The notes beneath the pieces were generated by a model. It was not told the origin of the DNA and did not search any database. It saw only the letters and a list, made by a program, of their open reading frames with translations. From Paraburkholderia sprentiae WSM5005 (lineage in GTDB: Bacteria > Pseudomonadota > Gammaproteobacteria > Burkholderiales > Burkholderiaceae), in assembly GCF_001865575.2 (NCBI RefSeq), contig NZ_CP017561.2, forward strand, positions 992,001 through 1,056,000: a stretch of DNA of 64,000 bases, written 5' to 3'. Made by a program: the position numbers and the translations under genes. Below are positions 28,836-33,275 of the stretch, in pieces (position 1 is the first letter of the stretch; the number at the start of each line of letters is the position of its first letter).

Positions 28836-29561
28836 TCAACTGTCCTTCGATTCGTTGCGAGGCGCGGCGCCCTCACGGGGCGGCAGGTAATCGTAGAACT
28901 CGCGTTTGGGCAGCTTGCCCGAGACGAGGTCGTCGAAGAGTTGCCGCGAGCGGCCGCGCAGGTAGGGCGCCATCAGCGAGACGATCTGCACGCTCACCTG
29001 GTGCAGCTCCTCGCGGATCGCTTCCTGCTCGTTGTATTTGCGCGGATTCATCACGAACTGATACGACAGCCAGTACGTGCCGATCACGCCGACGTTGGTC
29101 GCGATCACCTGCATTTCCTGCGGCGTCGCGACCATTTCGCCGTCGGCGACGAGCTGCTCGCAGAACTGGCTCGCGAAGCGCACCTTGTGGCTGATGATCT
29201 GCTTGAAGTGCGTCTCGAGCGTGCGGTTGCGCGCGAGCAGGTCGTTCAGGTCGCGGTACAGGAAGCGGTAGCGCCACGTGAAATCGACCATGTACTGCAG
29301 GTACGACCACATTTCGTCGATGGTCGCGCGATGGTCGTCCGGGAAACGCAGACGCTTCTCGATCTCCTGCTCGAACTGGCTGAAGATGCTGTTGATGATG
29401 TCGTCTTTGTTGCGGAAGTGGTAGTACAGGTTGCCTGGACTGATTTCCATTTCCTCGGCGATCGTCGTGGTCGTGACGTTCGGCTCGCCGATTTCGTTGA
29501 ACAGCTTTAACGACAGTTCGAGAATCCGTTCGCGCGTGCGGCGGGGAGGTTTGCCTTCCAT
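28836..29561 (-). CDS. TetR family transcriptional regulator
   Basis: A 241-residue regulator. The N-terminal helix-turn-helix reads TRERILELSLKLFNEIG then TTTTIAEEMEISPGNLYYHF, the typical TetR pattern with the GNLYYHFRNKDDI block. The C-terminal ligand domain (residues 80-220) is rich in aromatic residues. Its stop is immediately next to the LOG gene start, so the pair is co-transcribed. A palindrome over its likely promoter (29748-29771) suggests self-repression. The ligand is unknown. Confidence 0.9.
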   Translation of the reverse strand: MEGKPPRRTRERILELSLKLFNEIGEPNVTTTTIAEEMEISPGNLYYHFRNKDDIINSIFSQFEQEIEKRLRFPDDHRATIDEMWSYLQYMVDFTWRYRFLYRDLNDLLARNRTLETHFKQIISHKVRFASQFCEQLVADGEMVATPQEMQVIATNVGVIGTYWLSYQFVMNPRKYNEQEAIREELHQVSVQIVSLMAPYLRGRSRQLFDDLVSGKLPKREFYDYLPPREGAAPRNESKDS

Positions 29562-29747
29562 GTCGTCCGGCCCTGGTTATGCCGGGCTGGGCGCGTGGCG
29601 GCGTGCCGCTGCTGCGTGTTCCACCCGGATGCGGTTGGTATTTTGAGCGCTCCCGAACCCGCCGCCACGCGACGGGCTCCCCGAAAGGGCAGGGTGAGGT
29701 CCGACGGTGTTGCCTTGCGCCGGCGCTTTCCTGCGAGACCATCGAAC

Positions 29748-29771
29748 GATTATAAACCGAGCGTTCTAATC
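29748..29771 (-). promoter_or_regulatory. likely tetR promoter and operator
   Basis: A 24-bp imperfect palindrome begins GATTATAA and ends TTCTAATC, with 8 of 12 base pairs symmetric. On the minus strand it contains TATAAT (plus strand 29749-29754), preceded at 16 bp by TTGGGG. A TetR dimer bound here would block the promoter. The start codon is about 185 bases downstream, which implies a long 5' leader. Confidence 0.5.
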
Positions 29772-29841
29772 CCCAACCGGCGGTGCGGATTTTCGTTCTG
29801 TGGGGCGTGGCCGGGCGTGCGCTTCGACCTGCATCGATCCA

Positions 29842-30528
29842 TCAAAGCCACGCCCGAATCCAGCCGACGACCAGCGGCCCGACGATCACACCCCACGTCA
29901 TCAGACACATGCCGAGTGCGACCATCACGGCCGCGCTGCCGAGATCTTTCGCGCGACGCGAGAGCTCGTGACGTTCGAGCGAGATCCGGTCGATCGCCGC
30001 TTCGACGCTCGAATTGAGCAGCTCGACGATCAGCACGAGCAGCACCGAGCCGAGCAGCAATACGCGCGACACGGGATCGACAGGCACCACGAGGCCGCAC
30101 GGAATCAGGATCGCGGCCAGCGTGAGTTCCTGACGAAACGCACTTTCCTCACGAATCGCGACGCGAAAGCCGGCCAGCGAGTTTTTCATCGCGTGCCACG
30201 CGCGCGTGAGGCCGCGGTTGCCTTTGTAGGGGTTGAAGGGCAGCGGGGCGAGGGGGTCGTCGGGGCTGAGCGGTTCGTGAGCGGTGTCGAGGGTTGAGTC
30301 GCGGGTCGAGTCGTGCGCAGCGTTGCGTTGCGCGTCCTCCGCGGCGTTCGCGTCGCCGCTGATCGCGTTGTTGCCGCCGTTCACCCGGGGCGTGGCAGCC
30401 GTCTGCTCGCCCGCACCCGGCTCGCGTACATCGTCGAACGGTTCGATGCTGGTGGTGTCGCGGGCGGACTTGAAGGCGCGTAGCGCGCCGTTTGACGCGC
30501 CTTCGGCGCTGGATCGACTGCTTCGCAT
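29842..30528 (-). CDS. dgkA: diacylglycerol kinase
   Basis: DgkA phosphorylates diacylglycerol to phosphatidic acid in the inner membrane. The C-terminal 130 residues hold the trimeric kinase fold: NSLAGFRVAIREESAFRQEL, then three helices and the catalytic VELLNSSVEAAIDR. Unusually, the first ~95 residues are a polar, Ala/Asp/Thr-rich, probably disordered extension; E. coli DgkA is only about 120 residues. It is the third gene of plcP-agt-dgkA with 22 bases from agt. It would recycle diacylglycerol released by PlcP that is not glycosylated. Confidence 0.92.
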   Translation of the reverse strand: MRSSRSSAEGASNGALRAFKSARDTTSIEPFDDVREPGAGEQTAATPRVNGGNNAISGDANAAEDAQRNAAHDSTRDSTLDTAHEPLSPDDPLAPLPFNPYKGNRGLTRAWHAMKNSLAGFRVAIREESAFRQELTLAAILIPCGLVVPVDPVSRVLLLGSVLLVLIVELLNSSVEAAIDRISLERHELSRRAKDLGSAAVMVALGMCLMTWGVIVGPLVVGWIRAWL

Positions 30529-30550
30529 GTCTGGCTCCGCGCGCCCCGCA

Positions 30551-31594
30551 TTACGCGGCGGCGCTCTCCTCGCGATACGTCGCGCCGCGCAGCGGCTTCA
30601 GATGCGCGGCGAATTGCGCGGACGCCGCCGCCCACGAGAAGCGCTCGGCCCACGCGCGCGCCTCCGATCGATCGATCTTCAATGCTTCGAGGCAGGCTTC
30701 GCGCAGATCCTCATGCATCGCGCCGGCGCCGCCGTCGCCGAGCACGTCGATCGGGCCGGTGACCGGATAGGCGGCCACCGGCGTGCCGCATGCGAGCGCT
30801 TCGAGCAGCACCAGCCCGAACGTATCGGTGCGGCTCGGAAACACGAAGACGTCGGCGGCCGCGTAGACTTTCGCGAGTTCGGCCTGCGACAGCACGCCCA
30901 GATAGTTGACCTGCGGATAGCGCGACTTCAGCTCGGCCAGTGCCGGACCCTCGCCCGCGACCCACTTCGAGCCGGGCAGGTCGAGCTGCAAAAATGCCTC
31001 GACGTTTTTTTCGACCGCCACGCGCCCGACGTACAGGAAGATCGGCCGCGCGGTGTTGAGTACCTTCGAGTCCATCGGGCGGAAGATCTCGAGATCGACG
31101 CCGCGCGTCCACAGCACGACGTTCGTGAAACCGAACTTCTCGAGGTCCTGCTTGACGACGGGCGTCGGCGCCATCACCGCGAGCGACGGCTTGTGGAACC
31201 AGTGCAGAAACTTGTAGGTTGCCGCGAGCGGGATACGAAAGCGCGCCTGCACGTATTCGGGAAAGCGCGTGTGATACGCGGTCGTGAACGGCAGCTTGTG
31301 CTCCAGCGCATATGCGCGCGCGCCCATGCCGAGCGGACCTTCGGTCGCAATGTGCAACGCGTCGGGCGCGAAACGATCGATGCGCTCGCGCAGCCGGCCG
31401 CGCGGCAGCAGCGACAGGCGTATCTCCGGATAAGTCGGGCAAGGGATGGTGCGGAATTCGAGCGGCGTCAGCAGGTCGACCTGATGGCCGAGCGCGGTGA
31501 GTTCGCGCCGGGTGTTCTTCAGCGTGCGCACGACGCCGTTGACCTGCGGCTCCCATGCGTCGGTGACGATCATGATCTTCATCGCGTTGTTCAT
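30551..31594 (-). CDS. GT4 glycosyltransferase, Agt-like glycolipid synthase
   Basis: A 347-residue GT-B fold enzyme. It has IVTDAWEPQVNGVVRTL at the N-terminus, WTRGVDLEIFRP, YVGRVAVEKNVEAFL, and the C-terminal donor site FPSRTDTFGLVLLEALACGTPVAAYP. The family transfers sugars from nucleotide donors. Its place directly between a PlcP-like phospholipase and dgkA resembles the plcP-agt pairs of alpha-proteobacteria, where the enzyme makes glucosyl- or glucuronosyl-diacylglycerol during phosphate starvation. Substrate assignment is inferred from this context, not from residues. It lies 35 bases after plcP. Confidence 0.82.
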   Translation of the reverse strand: MNNAMKIMIVTDAWEPQVNGVVRTLKNTRRELTALGHQVDLLTPLEFRTIPCPTYPEIRLSLLPRGRLRERIDRFAPDALHIATEGPLGMGARAYALEHKLPFTTAYHTRFPEYVQARFRIPLAATYKFLHWFHKPSLAVMAPTPVVKQDLEKFGFTNVVLWTRGVDLEIFRPMDSKVLNTARPIFLYVGRVAVEKNVEAFLQLDLPGSKWVAGEGPALAELKSRYPQVNYLGVLSQAELAKVYAAADVFVFPSRTDTFGLVLLEALACGTPVAAYPVTGPIDVLGDGGAGAMHEDLREACLEALKIDRSEARAWAERFSWAAASAQFAAHLKPLRGATYREESAAA

Positions 31595-31629
31595 CGCTGC
31601 GGCCCTGTGGAAGTGGAGAGTGGACGTGC

Positions 31630-32571
31630 TCAGGCAGTGGCGCGGGCTTTTTGCGTGCCCGCCTGGGGCGCGCGCAGCGCGGTCCAGAAGATCACCTTGA
31701 GCTCGCCTTCATAGGTCTCGACGAGCGCCGACAGACTCTCGACCCAATCGCCATCGTTGCAATAGAGCACGCCGTCGATCTCGCGCATCTCGGCCTTGTG
31801 GATGTGCCCGCAGACGACGCCGTCGCAGCCGCGGCGACGCGCTTCGTCGGTCATCACCCGTTCGAACGACGAGATGAAATTGACGGCGTTCTTGACCTGA
31901 TGCTTCAGGTATTGCGACAGCGACCAGTACGGAAAGCCGAGCTTGCTGCGGATCCGGTTGAACCAGCGGTTCAGCACGAGAATCATCGTGTAGAGCGTGT
32001 CGCCGAGATAGGCGAGCCATTTCGCGTGCTGGATCACGCCGTCGAACAGATCGCCGTGCACGATCCACAGGCGCTTGCCGGCGAGCGTCGTGTGAAACGC
32101 TTCACCGCGCACGTGGATGTCGCCGAACGCGAGGTCGCAGAACTGGCGCGCGGCTTCGTCGTGGTTGCCGGGCACGTAGATGACCTGGGTGCCTTTGCGC
32201 GCCTTGCGCAGCACTTTCTGCACGACGTCGTTGTGCGCCTGGGGCCAGTACCAGCCCTTCTTCAACTGCCAGCCGTCGATGATGTCGCCGACGAGGTACA
32301 GGTACTCGGATTCGTTATGGCGCAGAAAGTCGAGCAGATAGCCTGCCTGGCAGCCGCTGGAGCCGAGGTGGATGTCGGAGAGCCAGATCGTGCGATAGCG
32401 ATGCGGATCCTCGTGGCTGTCGTCGTGATGGTCGGCGTGGGCATCCAGTGACGGCGTCGCGGGCAGCGGCAGGCCGTGATGCGTAGAACCTGGGGCGGGC
32501 CGGAACGCGACTGGGTCGACGCTCGGGCCGGTTTGACGAAACAGGGAAGTCGCGGACGTATTGGGGTCCAT
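31630..32571 (-). CDS. PlcP-like metallophosphoesterase (phospholipase C)
   Basis: A 313-residue calcineurin-type phosphoesterase. Metal-site motifs in order are LSDIHLG, VGDIIDGW, VPGNHDEAAR, HGDLFD and CGHIHKAE. The blocks GCQAGYLLDFLRHNES, KKGWYWPQAHNDVVQKVLRK and SLSQYLKHQVKNAVNFISSFE resemble the Sinorhizobium PlcP type that removes phosphorylated headgroups from phospholipids during phosphate limitation. Automated annotation would probably call it UDP-2,3-diacylglucosamine hydrolase (LpxH), the main alternative. The first 57 residues are low-complexity with a His/Asp cluster. It is the first gene of plcP-agt-dgkA, with a PHO-box-like site 45 bases upstream. Confidence 0.78.
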   Translation of the reverse strand: MDPNTSATSLFRQTGPSVDPVAFRPAPGSTHHGLPLPATPSLDAHADHHDDSHEDPHRYRTIWLSDIHLGSSGCQAGYLLDFLRHNESEYLYLVGDIIDGWQLKKGWYWPQAHNDVVQKVLRKARKGTQVIYVPGNHDEAARQFCDLAFGDIHVRGEAFHTTLAGKRLWIVHGDLFDGVIQHAKWLAYLGDTLYTMILVLNRWFNRIRSKLGFPYWSLSQYLKHQVKNAVNFISSFERVMTDEARRRGCDGVVCGHIHKAEMREIDGVLYCNDGDWVESLSALVETYEGELKVIFWTALRAPQAGTQKARATA

Positions 32572-32615
32572 GGCTCACGCGTCGAGTGGCGGTGCCCGTA
32601 TTGGGCCGGGCGCGC

Positions 32616-32633
32616 GTGACTGCGGCGTGACAG
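32616..32633 (-). promoter_or_regulatory. PHO box upstream of plcP operon
   Basis: Read on the minus strand, two heptamers CTGTCAC and CAGTCAC are separated by GCCG. This matches the PhoB layout of two CTGTCAT-like repeats with 4-base spacing (6 and 5 of 7 positions). It ends 45 bases before the plcP ATG. No convincing -10 element is seen, which is common for PhoB-activated promoters with poor core elements. Confidence 0.6.
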
Positions 32634-32693
32634 TCATGAGAAGTTCTTATTACGGGGGGCTTGGCGGGGTCTGTTTTTTCGTTGTTCTGGCCT

Positions 32694-33207
32694 TGTTGGC
32701 CTTTCCTTGATTTGTTGTCGGTCTATTGGCGTTGCCCCTGTGCGGGGCGGCACCTACTTTCTTTGCTGCTGCAAAGAAAGTAGGCAAAGAAGACAGCTTT
32801 ACACCGCCAGCTCTTAAGCGGGTCCCTTGGCTTGGAAGGGGTAGTGGTGCATCTGGAGTCGGTGCCCCCGCACATTTCACCCTGGTGACAAAGCCGTCAT
32901 CCTTCCCACTCCGCACTGCGTGCGTCGTGGACGGGTCTGCCAGGGAAACCGACCGATGGTTTTGGAACGGGGTTTCGGCGCGCGCAGCGCCGCCGCAAGA
33001 ATGACTGCCTTGTCACAAGCGCCGAACGTGCGGGAGCGCGGATTCCAGATGCACCACTGCCGGAGGCGGACCGAGGGACCCGCTTAAGAATTTGCGGTGT
33101 GAGCTGTCTTCTTTGCTTACTTTCTTTGCAGCAGCAAAGAAAGTGAGTGCCGCCCCGCACAGGGGCAACGCTAATAGACCGACAACAAATCAAGGAAAGG
33201 CCAACAA
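32694..33207. repeat. long inverted-repeat element
   Basis: Two arms of about 215 bases face each other: left about 32694-32912, right about 32996-33207, with about 83 bases between. The outer 110 bases are nearly identical, with single-base differences (TTGGCG/TTAGCG, CCTACTT/CTCACTT); the inner part drifts. Each arm carries its own hairpin: CTACTTTCTTTGC with GCAAAGAAAGTAG at 32754-32783, and the matching one at 33116-33147. There is no transposase. The small open frames inside (PTFFAAAKKVG-like) are products of the repeat. It looks like a fold-back or non-autonomous element between two minus-strand operons. Confidence 0.75.
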
Positions 33208-33275
33208 CCCCACAGAACAGGACCAGGAGCGCCCCCCAGCCCGGGGAGACAACGCAACCGCAGACCCACGCGCGC

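Follow-up and report, generated by a model that had tools for sequence, protein, structure and literature searches.

Do the three closely spaced minus-strand genes listed in Table 1 serve lipid A synthesis, as the first one's name in the databases would have it, or the replacement of membrane phospholipids when phosphate is scarce? The genes lie in a window (the whole 64,000-nucleotide stretch of Paraburkholderia sprentiae WSM5005 DNA that was analyzed), and an earlier note, made from the sequence alone, had taken the second view. The analyses described here make it very probable that plcP-agt-dgkA is a membrane-remodeling operon controlled by PhoB, with the binding of PhoB, co-transcription, the substrates and products of the enzymes and the role of DgkA as predicted parts of that reading.

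Table 1. Features of the plcP-agt-dgkA locus, numbered from the first nucleotide of the window
Feature	Position	Strand	Description
plcP	31630..32571	minus	metallophosphoesterase, 313 aa; predicted phospholipase C on membrane phospholipids
agt	30551..31594	minus	GT4 glycosyltransferase, 347 aa; belongs to the plcP-linked group and is predicted to glycosylate diacylglycerol
dgkA	29842..30528	minus	prokaryotic diacylglycerol kinase, 228 aa; long variable N-terminal extension
PhoB-type box CTGTCACGCCGCAGTCAC	32616..32633	minus	half-sites CTGTCAC and CAGTCAC, 11 bp apart, with the spacer GCCG
conserved block GTAATAAGAACTTCTCATGA	32634..32653	minus	directly upstream of the PhoB-type box

Organization of the locus

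The open reading frame coordinates bore out the arrangement described in the earlier note, in which three adjacent genes are separated by intergenic gaps of 35 bases (plcP/agt) and 22 bases (agt/dgkA). The PhoB-like site that it had placed ahead of plcP was also real, as was the spacing of its two half-sites, and 44 bases separate the end of the box from the plcP ATG. No terminator was listed within the operon on the minus strand, and no sigma-70 promoter was found in 29200-33000 (0 versus 0.6 in shuffles). Co-transcription of plcP, agt and dgkA as one operon is predicted from the gene layout.

The first gene and its distinction from LpxH

The family to which the 313-aa protein belongs is named UDP-2,3-diacylglucosamine diphosphatase, or LpxH, by NCBI and JGI, a misannotation that the earlier note had anticipated. 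Among the 120 matches listed, the closest named relatives of the protein were from Paraburkholderia, and Burkholderia proteins were 77-81% identical to it. Scored against the LpxH model, the window protein reached 29.7 bits, far below the cut-off of 190.35, and so fell outside LpxH; a separate LpxH encoded elsewhere in the same genome scored 223 bits and shared 24% identity with the window protein over 125 residues.

A PlcP match was present in 108 of the 299 genomes of a phylum-wide sample. The matches formed two sets, widely separated in score. The strong group comprised 102 genomes (the present one included) with E values of at most 4.1e-59 and at least 39% identity. The remaining matches to the PlcP query, with E values of at least 2.0e-9 and 18-38 bits, were short fragments or LpxH-like, and four of the weak places coincided with LpxH genes.

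In a tree of 70 PlcP and 19 LpxH rows, the two families split completely with a support of 100, and the window protein was placed with PlcP. Clustering with LpxH, which the earlier note had named as the outcome that would count against PlcP, was looked for in this tree and gave way to full separation. Both this tree and that of Agt were built by a quick method with SH-aLRT support only, and the PlcP tree omits five of the 59 non-genus loci (L094 and L158, short; L136, L168 and L172, long), for which the open reading frame finder gave odd lengths. The motif GHIH was present in 70/70 PlcP rows and 0/19 LpxH rows, and GNRDF in 0/70 and 19/19, respectively. The metallophosphoesterase motifs SDxHLG, GDxxD, GNHD, HGD and GHIH formed invariant columns in 33 aligned sequences.

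Identity between the window protein and P0123 was 52% over 238 residues; P0123, a P. aeruginosa protein according to NCBI, likewise carries an LpxH-type database name and is presumably PA3219. Identities of 46-47% have been reported between PA3219 and two alphaproteobacterial PlcPs (PMC8528852).

A search of the PDB with the single window protein gave no match, and a search with the PlcP family profile gave mainly weak matches to LpxH. The AlphaFold model (mean pLDDT 76.7) had a metallophosphoesterase fold, with residues 1-51 modeled at low confidence and probably disordered. The best PDB matches of the model were LpxH structures, the top one at 17% identity with TM scores of 0.46/0.59. LpxH thus resembles the window protein in its calcineurin-like metallophosphoesterase fold but differs in its clade, in carrying GNRDF without GHIH, and in being a separate gene of the same genome. 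LpxH was rejected as the identity of the 313-aa protein on the model score, the separate LpxH, the tree and the motifs. The protein is of the PlcP type, and cleavage of phospholipids is its predicted activity.

The glycosyltransferase

The second gene encodes a protein with Pfam GT4 domains. A gene of this group lies beside plcP in 51/51 genus loci and in 37/59 non-genus loci, a count in which L094 and L158 are manual additions and the GT4 protein of L103 is only 31% identical. Among the best 80 of 580 named loci, several of which end at contig ends, an Agt match was found on the plcP strand in 50. No close paralogue of Agt was found in the genome (best 41 bits versus 785 for Agt itself). In the Agt tree the nearest rows were all plcP-linked; the deep branch dividing the agt group from the other GT4 proteins of the genome had a support of 31, with long branches. 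Identity to the glycosyltransferase encoded beside plcP in Pseudomonas loci was about 50%. Both the GT4 fold and orthology to the plcP-adjacent glycosyltransferase were found. The second gene is of the plcP-linked Agt type, with diacylglycerol glycosyltransferase as its predicted function, and a glycolipid would be the product of the operon.

A PhoB-type box upstream of plcP

Judged by eye, the plcP box agrees with the consensus CTGTCATNNNNCTGTCAT, as quoted in PMC8528852, at 11 of its 14 fixed positions, and the spacer GCCG of the box is not AT-rich. The exact sequence of the box occurs once in the 7.84 Mb genome, whose contig 1 contains the window. A scan with a PhoB matrix had been proposed in the earlier note as a check on the site. 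The half-site matrix used here covered 7 bases and was derived from pstS loci in 30 genomes of the genus, with plcP excluded from training; one locus (L064 of G031, with a fragmented pstS) was dropped, leaving 29 promoters. Half-site arrays (GTAAT, CTGTCAC, TTCAC, GTCAC, TGTCAC) were visible in 29/30 pstS loci. Pairs 11 bases apart were scored across the window and across 20 stretches, each of 20 kb, from the same genome, both strands included. The plcP box ranked 1 of 927,286 positions, with a score of 19.99; by the same pstS-trained matrix, the proximal box of the genome's own pstS scored 19.68.

The strict two-half-site pattern HWGTCAYNNNNHWGTCAY occurred in six places genome-wide, compared with one for the reversed control. 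Four of the six precede plcP, pstS, a phnC-like ABC gene and a phnG-like gene, the latter two recognized by reading open reading frames without a family search, and the other two have no evident phosphate link. One of the places matching the pattern is a strong PhoB-type pair, CAGTCACGGCGCAGTCAC (L127, G000 C2:94419-94436), about 110 bases upstream of the start of a short-chain dehydrogenase-like gene on the same strand.

Upstream of the olsB-like gene of the genome, an array of 11-base periodicity scored 15.6, weaker than the plcP box, in agreement with predictions for Burkholderia sensu lato (PMC7814305). The genome carries pst-phoU-phoB-phoR, and PhoB, PhoR and PhoU each scored above the curated cut-off. 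With a box ahead of the operon and PhoB encoded in the same genome, plcP-agt-dgkA has both marks of a Pho regulon member, and PhoB would be expected to bind at the plcP box.

Conservation of the box

Conservation was assessed in 51 genus loci, namely the present one and those of 50 of the 68 plcP-bearing same-genus genomes. In 51/51, the best pair in the 300 bases upstream was the plcP box, located 44-46 bases before the ATG. A score of at least 16 was reached in 48/51 of these upstream regions versus 0/933 control windows from the same loci; the other three boxes scored only 11-12 because one half-site had drifted. The control windows were mostly coding DNA, which makes a test against Markov shuffles fairer. 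Upstream of plcP at 59 non-genus loci, a pair scoring at least 15 was found in 23 regions versus 3/535 control windows, and p was at most 0.01 against each region's own Markov shuffles in 28/59. No box at or above 13.5 was found in 30/59 of the non-genus regions, and two loci (L137 and L138) had neither a strong box nor an adjacent agt. The earlier claim of a PhoB box was thus supported by both the genus-specific matrix and conservation.

Farther upstream of the box, the genus sequences have diverged, with the 20-base block GTAATAAGAACTTCTCATGA kept with few changes and, within the genus, conserved almost as well as the box. In this block, GTAAT precedes CTGTCAC by 22 bp (2 x 11), and the pstS arrays contain GTAAT half-sites as well; the middle part of the block fits no PhoB half-site. 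Block and box together possibly form an extended PhoB array. One same-genus genome (G033, 4.1 Mb) was the sole one of 69 relatives with no plcP match, and it has retained pstS with a Pho array.

The diacylglycerol kinase and recurrence of the trio

The third gene encodes a protein with a DAGK_prokar domain (PF01219, 108.5 bits) in its C-terminal half, and the core ELLNS..EA..DRI..HELS aligns with solved DgkA structures (PDB 3ze4), placing it in the DgkA family. The genome encodes another DgkA elsewhere, with 59% identity over 128 residues. Within the genus dgkA is the third gene in 51/51 loci, and in other genera of the family it is third in all three loci read (five plcP genomes). At the level of the order, dgkA stood beside plcP in only 2/19 loci; these came from 18 genomes, with the clear matches G083, G107 and G114 and the partial match G099 left out. 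For the wider comparison, 40 further regions were taken from the 101 strong PlcP matches, hand-picked for spread.

Outside the order, dgkA was sought in 80 of the 88 strong PlcP matches. A PF01219 gene was present in 44/80 of these plcP-bearing genomes and absent from 36/80. It lay at most 3 kb from plcP in 3 of the 44 dgkA-bearing genomes, where 0.06 were expected; the three genomes represent two families, and when these are counted as two lineages the probability of such linkage by chance is about 0.002. Two of them (G180 and G204, of one genus) have the order dgkA-plcP-agt. The third, G230 of another family (locus L299), has plcP-GT4-dgkA with gene ends overlapping or nearly touching, and its GT4 protein is of another subgroup, 27% identical to Agt, which suggests that the glycosyltransferase slot of the trio can be filled by another subgroup. 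None of the three genomes belongs to the class of the window; among the matches listed, the named relatives of the G180 PlcP are mostly gammaproteobacterial. Two MAG contigs among the best 80 of 580 named loci (L241 and L244) have dgkA downstream of plcP. In G167, G187, G237, G307, G310 and G385 (family f86) the linkage was looser, with 11-15 kb between dgkA and plcP on one contig.

The earlier note had spoken of an added dgkA. The presence of the gene stands; a one-off addition does not, since it recurs in 51/51 genus loci and in two further families. A broader reading, tentative and somewhat short of even odds, is that plcP, a glycosyltransferase gene and dgkA are a recurrent unit controlling the diacylglycerol branch point under phosphate starvation, assembled more than once (in Burkholderiaceae and in two families outside the class), core in the genus, perhaps also carried on marine phosphate islands, and hidden because its genes are named LpxH, glycosyltransferase/RfaG and DGK.

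Comparison with known systems

The PlcP and Agt steps are established for relatives (PMC8528852, PMC3972451, PMC9239053, PMC4796936). The earlier note called them established in alphaproteobacteria, which holds for PlcP-Agt there but not as a restriction, as the pathway has been shown in P. aeruginosa (PMC8528852). The closest parallel is PA3219-PA3218, where plcP and then a glycosyltransferase gene form an operon with a Pho box in the promoter region (PMC8528852). P. aeruginosa differs in having a second Agt elsewhere in its genome, and the function of its PlcP-Agt was shown by mutants and lipidomics, whereas that of the window proteins is predicted (PMC8528852). No mention of dgkA or diacylglycerol kinase was found in the available text of this P. 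aeruginosa study (PMC8528852).

The A. tumefaciens Agt and S. meliloti PlcP systems resemble the window operon in headgroup removal by PlcP and control by PhoB, and at low phosphate Agt makes glucosyl and glucuronosyl diacylglycerol (PMC3972451). Agrobacterium differs in that its plcP (atu1649) and agt (atu2297) have locus numbers far apart.

A diacylglycerol kinase likewise accompanies PlcP at low phosphate in P. putida BIRD-1, where PlcP, DagK and OlsAB were enriched under phosphate depletion and the discussion calls all of them Pho-dependent; among the proteins that the results list as missing from the phoBR mutant are PlcP and OlsAB, but not DagK (PMC5082522). The window dgkA lies inside the operon, whereas the gene, family and place of the P. 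putida DagK are not stated in the available text (PMC5082522). In HIMB59, phosphate islands that contain pst and phoRB also hold genes labeled DGK, LpxH and RfaG/glycosyltransferase (PMC10734472); judged by these names, the island genes would be a plcP-agt-dgkA-like trio under generic labels. They differ in lying on flexible islands of a marine alphaproteobacterial clade, and the authors ascribe no direct phosphorus role to the glycosyltransferase and the kinase (PMC10734472).

Proposed mechanism

Under phosphate scarcity, PhoR-PhoB would activate the promoter at the box. PlcP would then strip the phosphate headgroup from phospholipids, giving diacylglycerol together with a phosphoalcohol whose phosphate could be recovered. 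Agt would add a sugar to the diacylglycerol to form phosphorus-free glycolipids, the donors in relatives being UDP-glucose or UDP-glucuronate. Conversion of diacylglycerol to phosphatidic acid is known DgkA chemistry, and the kinase may re-phosphorylate diacylglycerol unused by Agt. The resulting phosphatidic acid would return the lipid anchor to phospholipid synthesis and prevent a build-up of diacylglycerol. It is gene order that places DgkA in the starvation response, a role that is accordingly a suggested one.

Alternative explanations

An operon for lipid A synthesis headed by LpxH would agree with the NCBI and JGI names, with the shared fold superfamily, and with LpxH being the best PDB match of both the model and the family profile. 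The score far under the LpxH cut-off, the separate LpxH, the full tree separation, the low identity to that LpxH and to the best structural match, and the same name on the PlcP-type P. aeruginosa protein P0123 leave this explanation next to no chance. Binding of the box by an OmpR-family regulator other than PhoB is improbable too, though less extremely so. Such a regulator might explain the conserved block beside the box, which the PhoB half-site pattern does not, and the GC-rich spacer of the box. The matrix by which the box ranked first was, however, derived from pstS promoters, the genome's own pstS array contains both CTGTCAC and CAGTCAC, other HWGTCAYNNNNHWGTCAY sites precede pstS and phn-type genes, and a weaker array precedes olsB.

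A third alternative accepts plcP-agt as Pho-controlled remodeling and regards dgkA as a linked housekeeping gene that plays no particular part in the switch. DgkA has a housekeeping function, the recycling of diacylglycerol from glucan synthesis, and it is widespread (8/14 control genomes). Its family is encoded in only 44/80 of the plcP-bearing genomes, so the pathway can do without dgkA, and the gene is seldom beside plcP at order level. This alternative is unlikely but deserves considerably more weight than the other two. Against it stand the adjacency throughout the genus loci and in the three wider-family loci read, the adjacency in two further families, one with dgkA first, and the other dgkA copy, which could serve housekeeping. 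DagK is also counted as Pho-dependent in the discussion of the P. putida study (PMC5082522). The glycolipid step of the preferred reading, a PhoB-controlled plcP-agt-dgkA operon, has a point against it in P. xenovorans LB400, in which PE was replaced by ornithine lipids at low phosphate ("data not shown", PMC7814305); the passages of that paper on this strain leave glycolipids unmentioned.

Implications

PlcP-Agt remodeling is known; what appears to be new is its occurrence in Paraburkholderia as a plcP-agt-dgkA operon that is conserved, preceded by a Pho box and concealed by the LpxH name. No description of plcP-agt in Burkholderia or Paraburkholderia was found in the literature searched, which covered few subscription journals; Burkholderia, PlcP and the Pho box came up together there in a paper on P. 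aeruginosa and in a review on Agrobacterium. Annotation assigns the genes to lipid A synthesis, so surveys based on names miss the pathway. The genus, whose members live in soil and in association with plants, is predicted to be able to swap phospholipids for glycolipids at low phosphate, beside the known ornithine lipids, and by homology the prediction extends to Burkholderia. P. aeruginosa mutants without such glycolipids survived polymyxin B poorly (PMC8528852), and work on Burkholderiaceae lipids at low phosphate should therefore seek glycolipids. The link to dgkA bears on how cells keep diacylglycerol from accumulating during remodeling.

A repeated element beside the operon

An element of about 530 bp (window 32688-33212) separates the RDD gene from the plcP promoter. 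Its terminal inverted repeats are 111 nt long (95%), and it has inner inverted repeats as well. Elsewhere in the genome, seven places match the element over 322-577 bases, at 80-95% identity, and two more do so over about 55 bases. It is a repeated non-coding element and possibly mobile.
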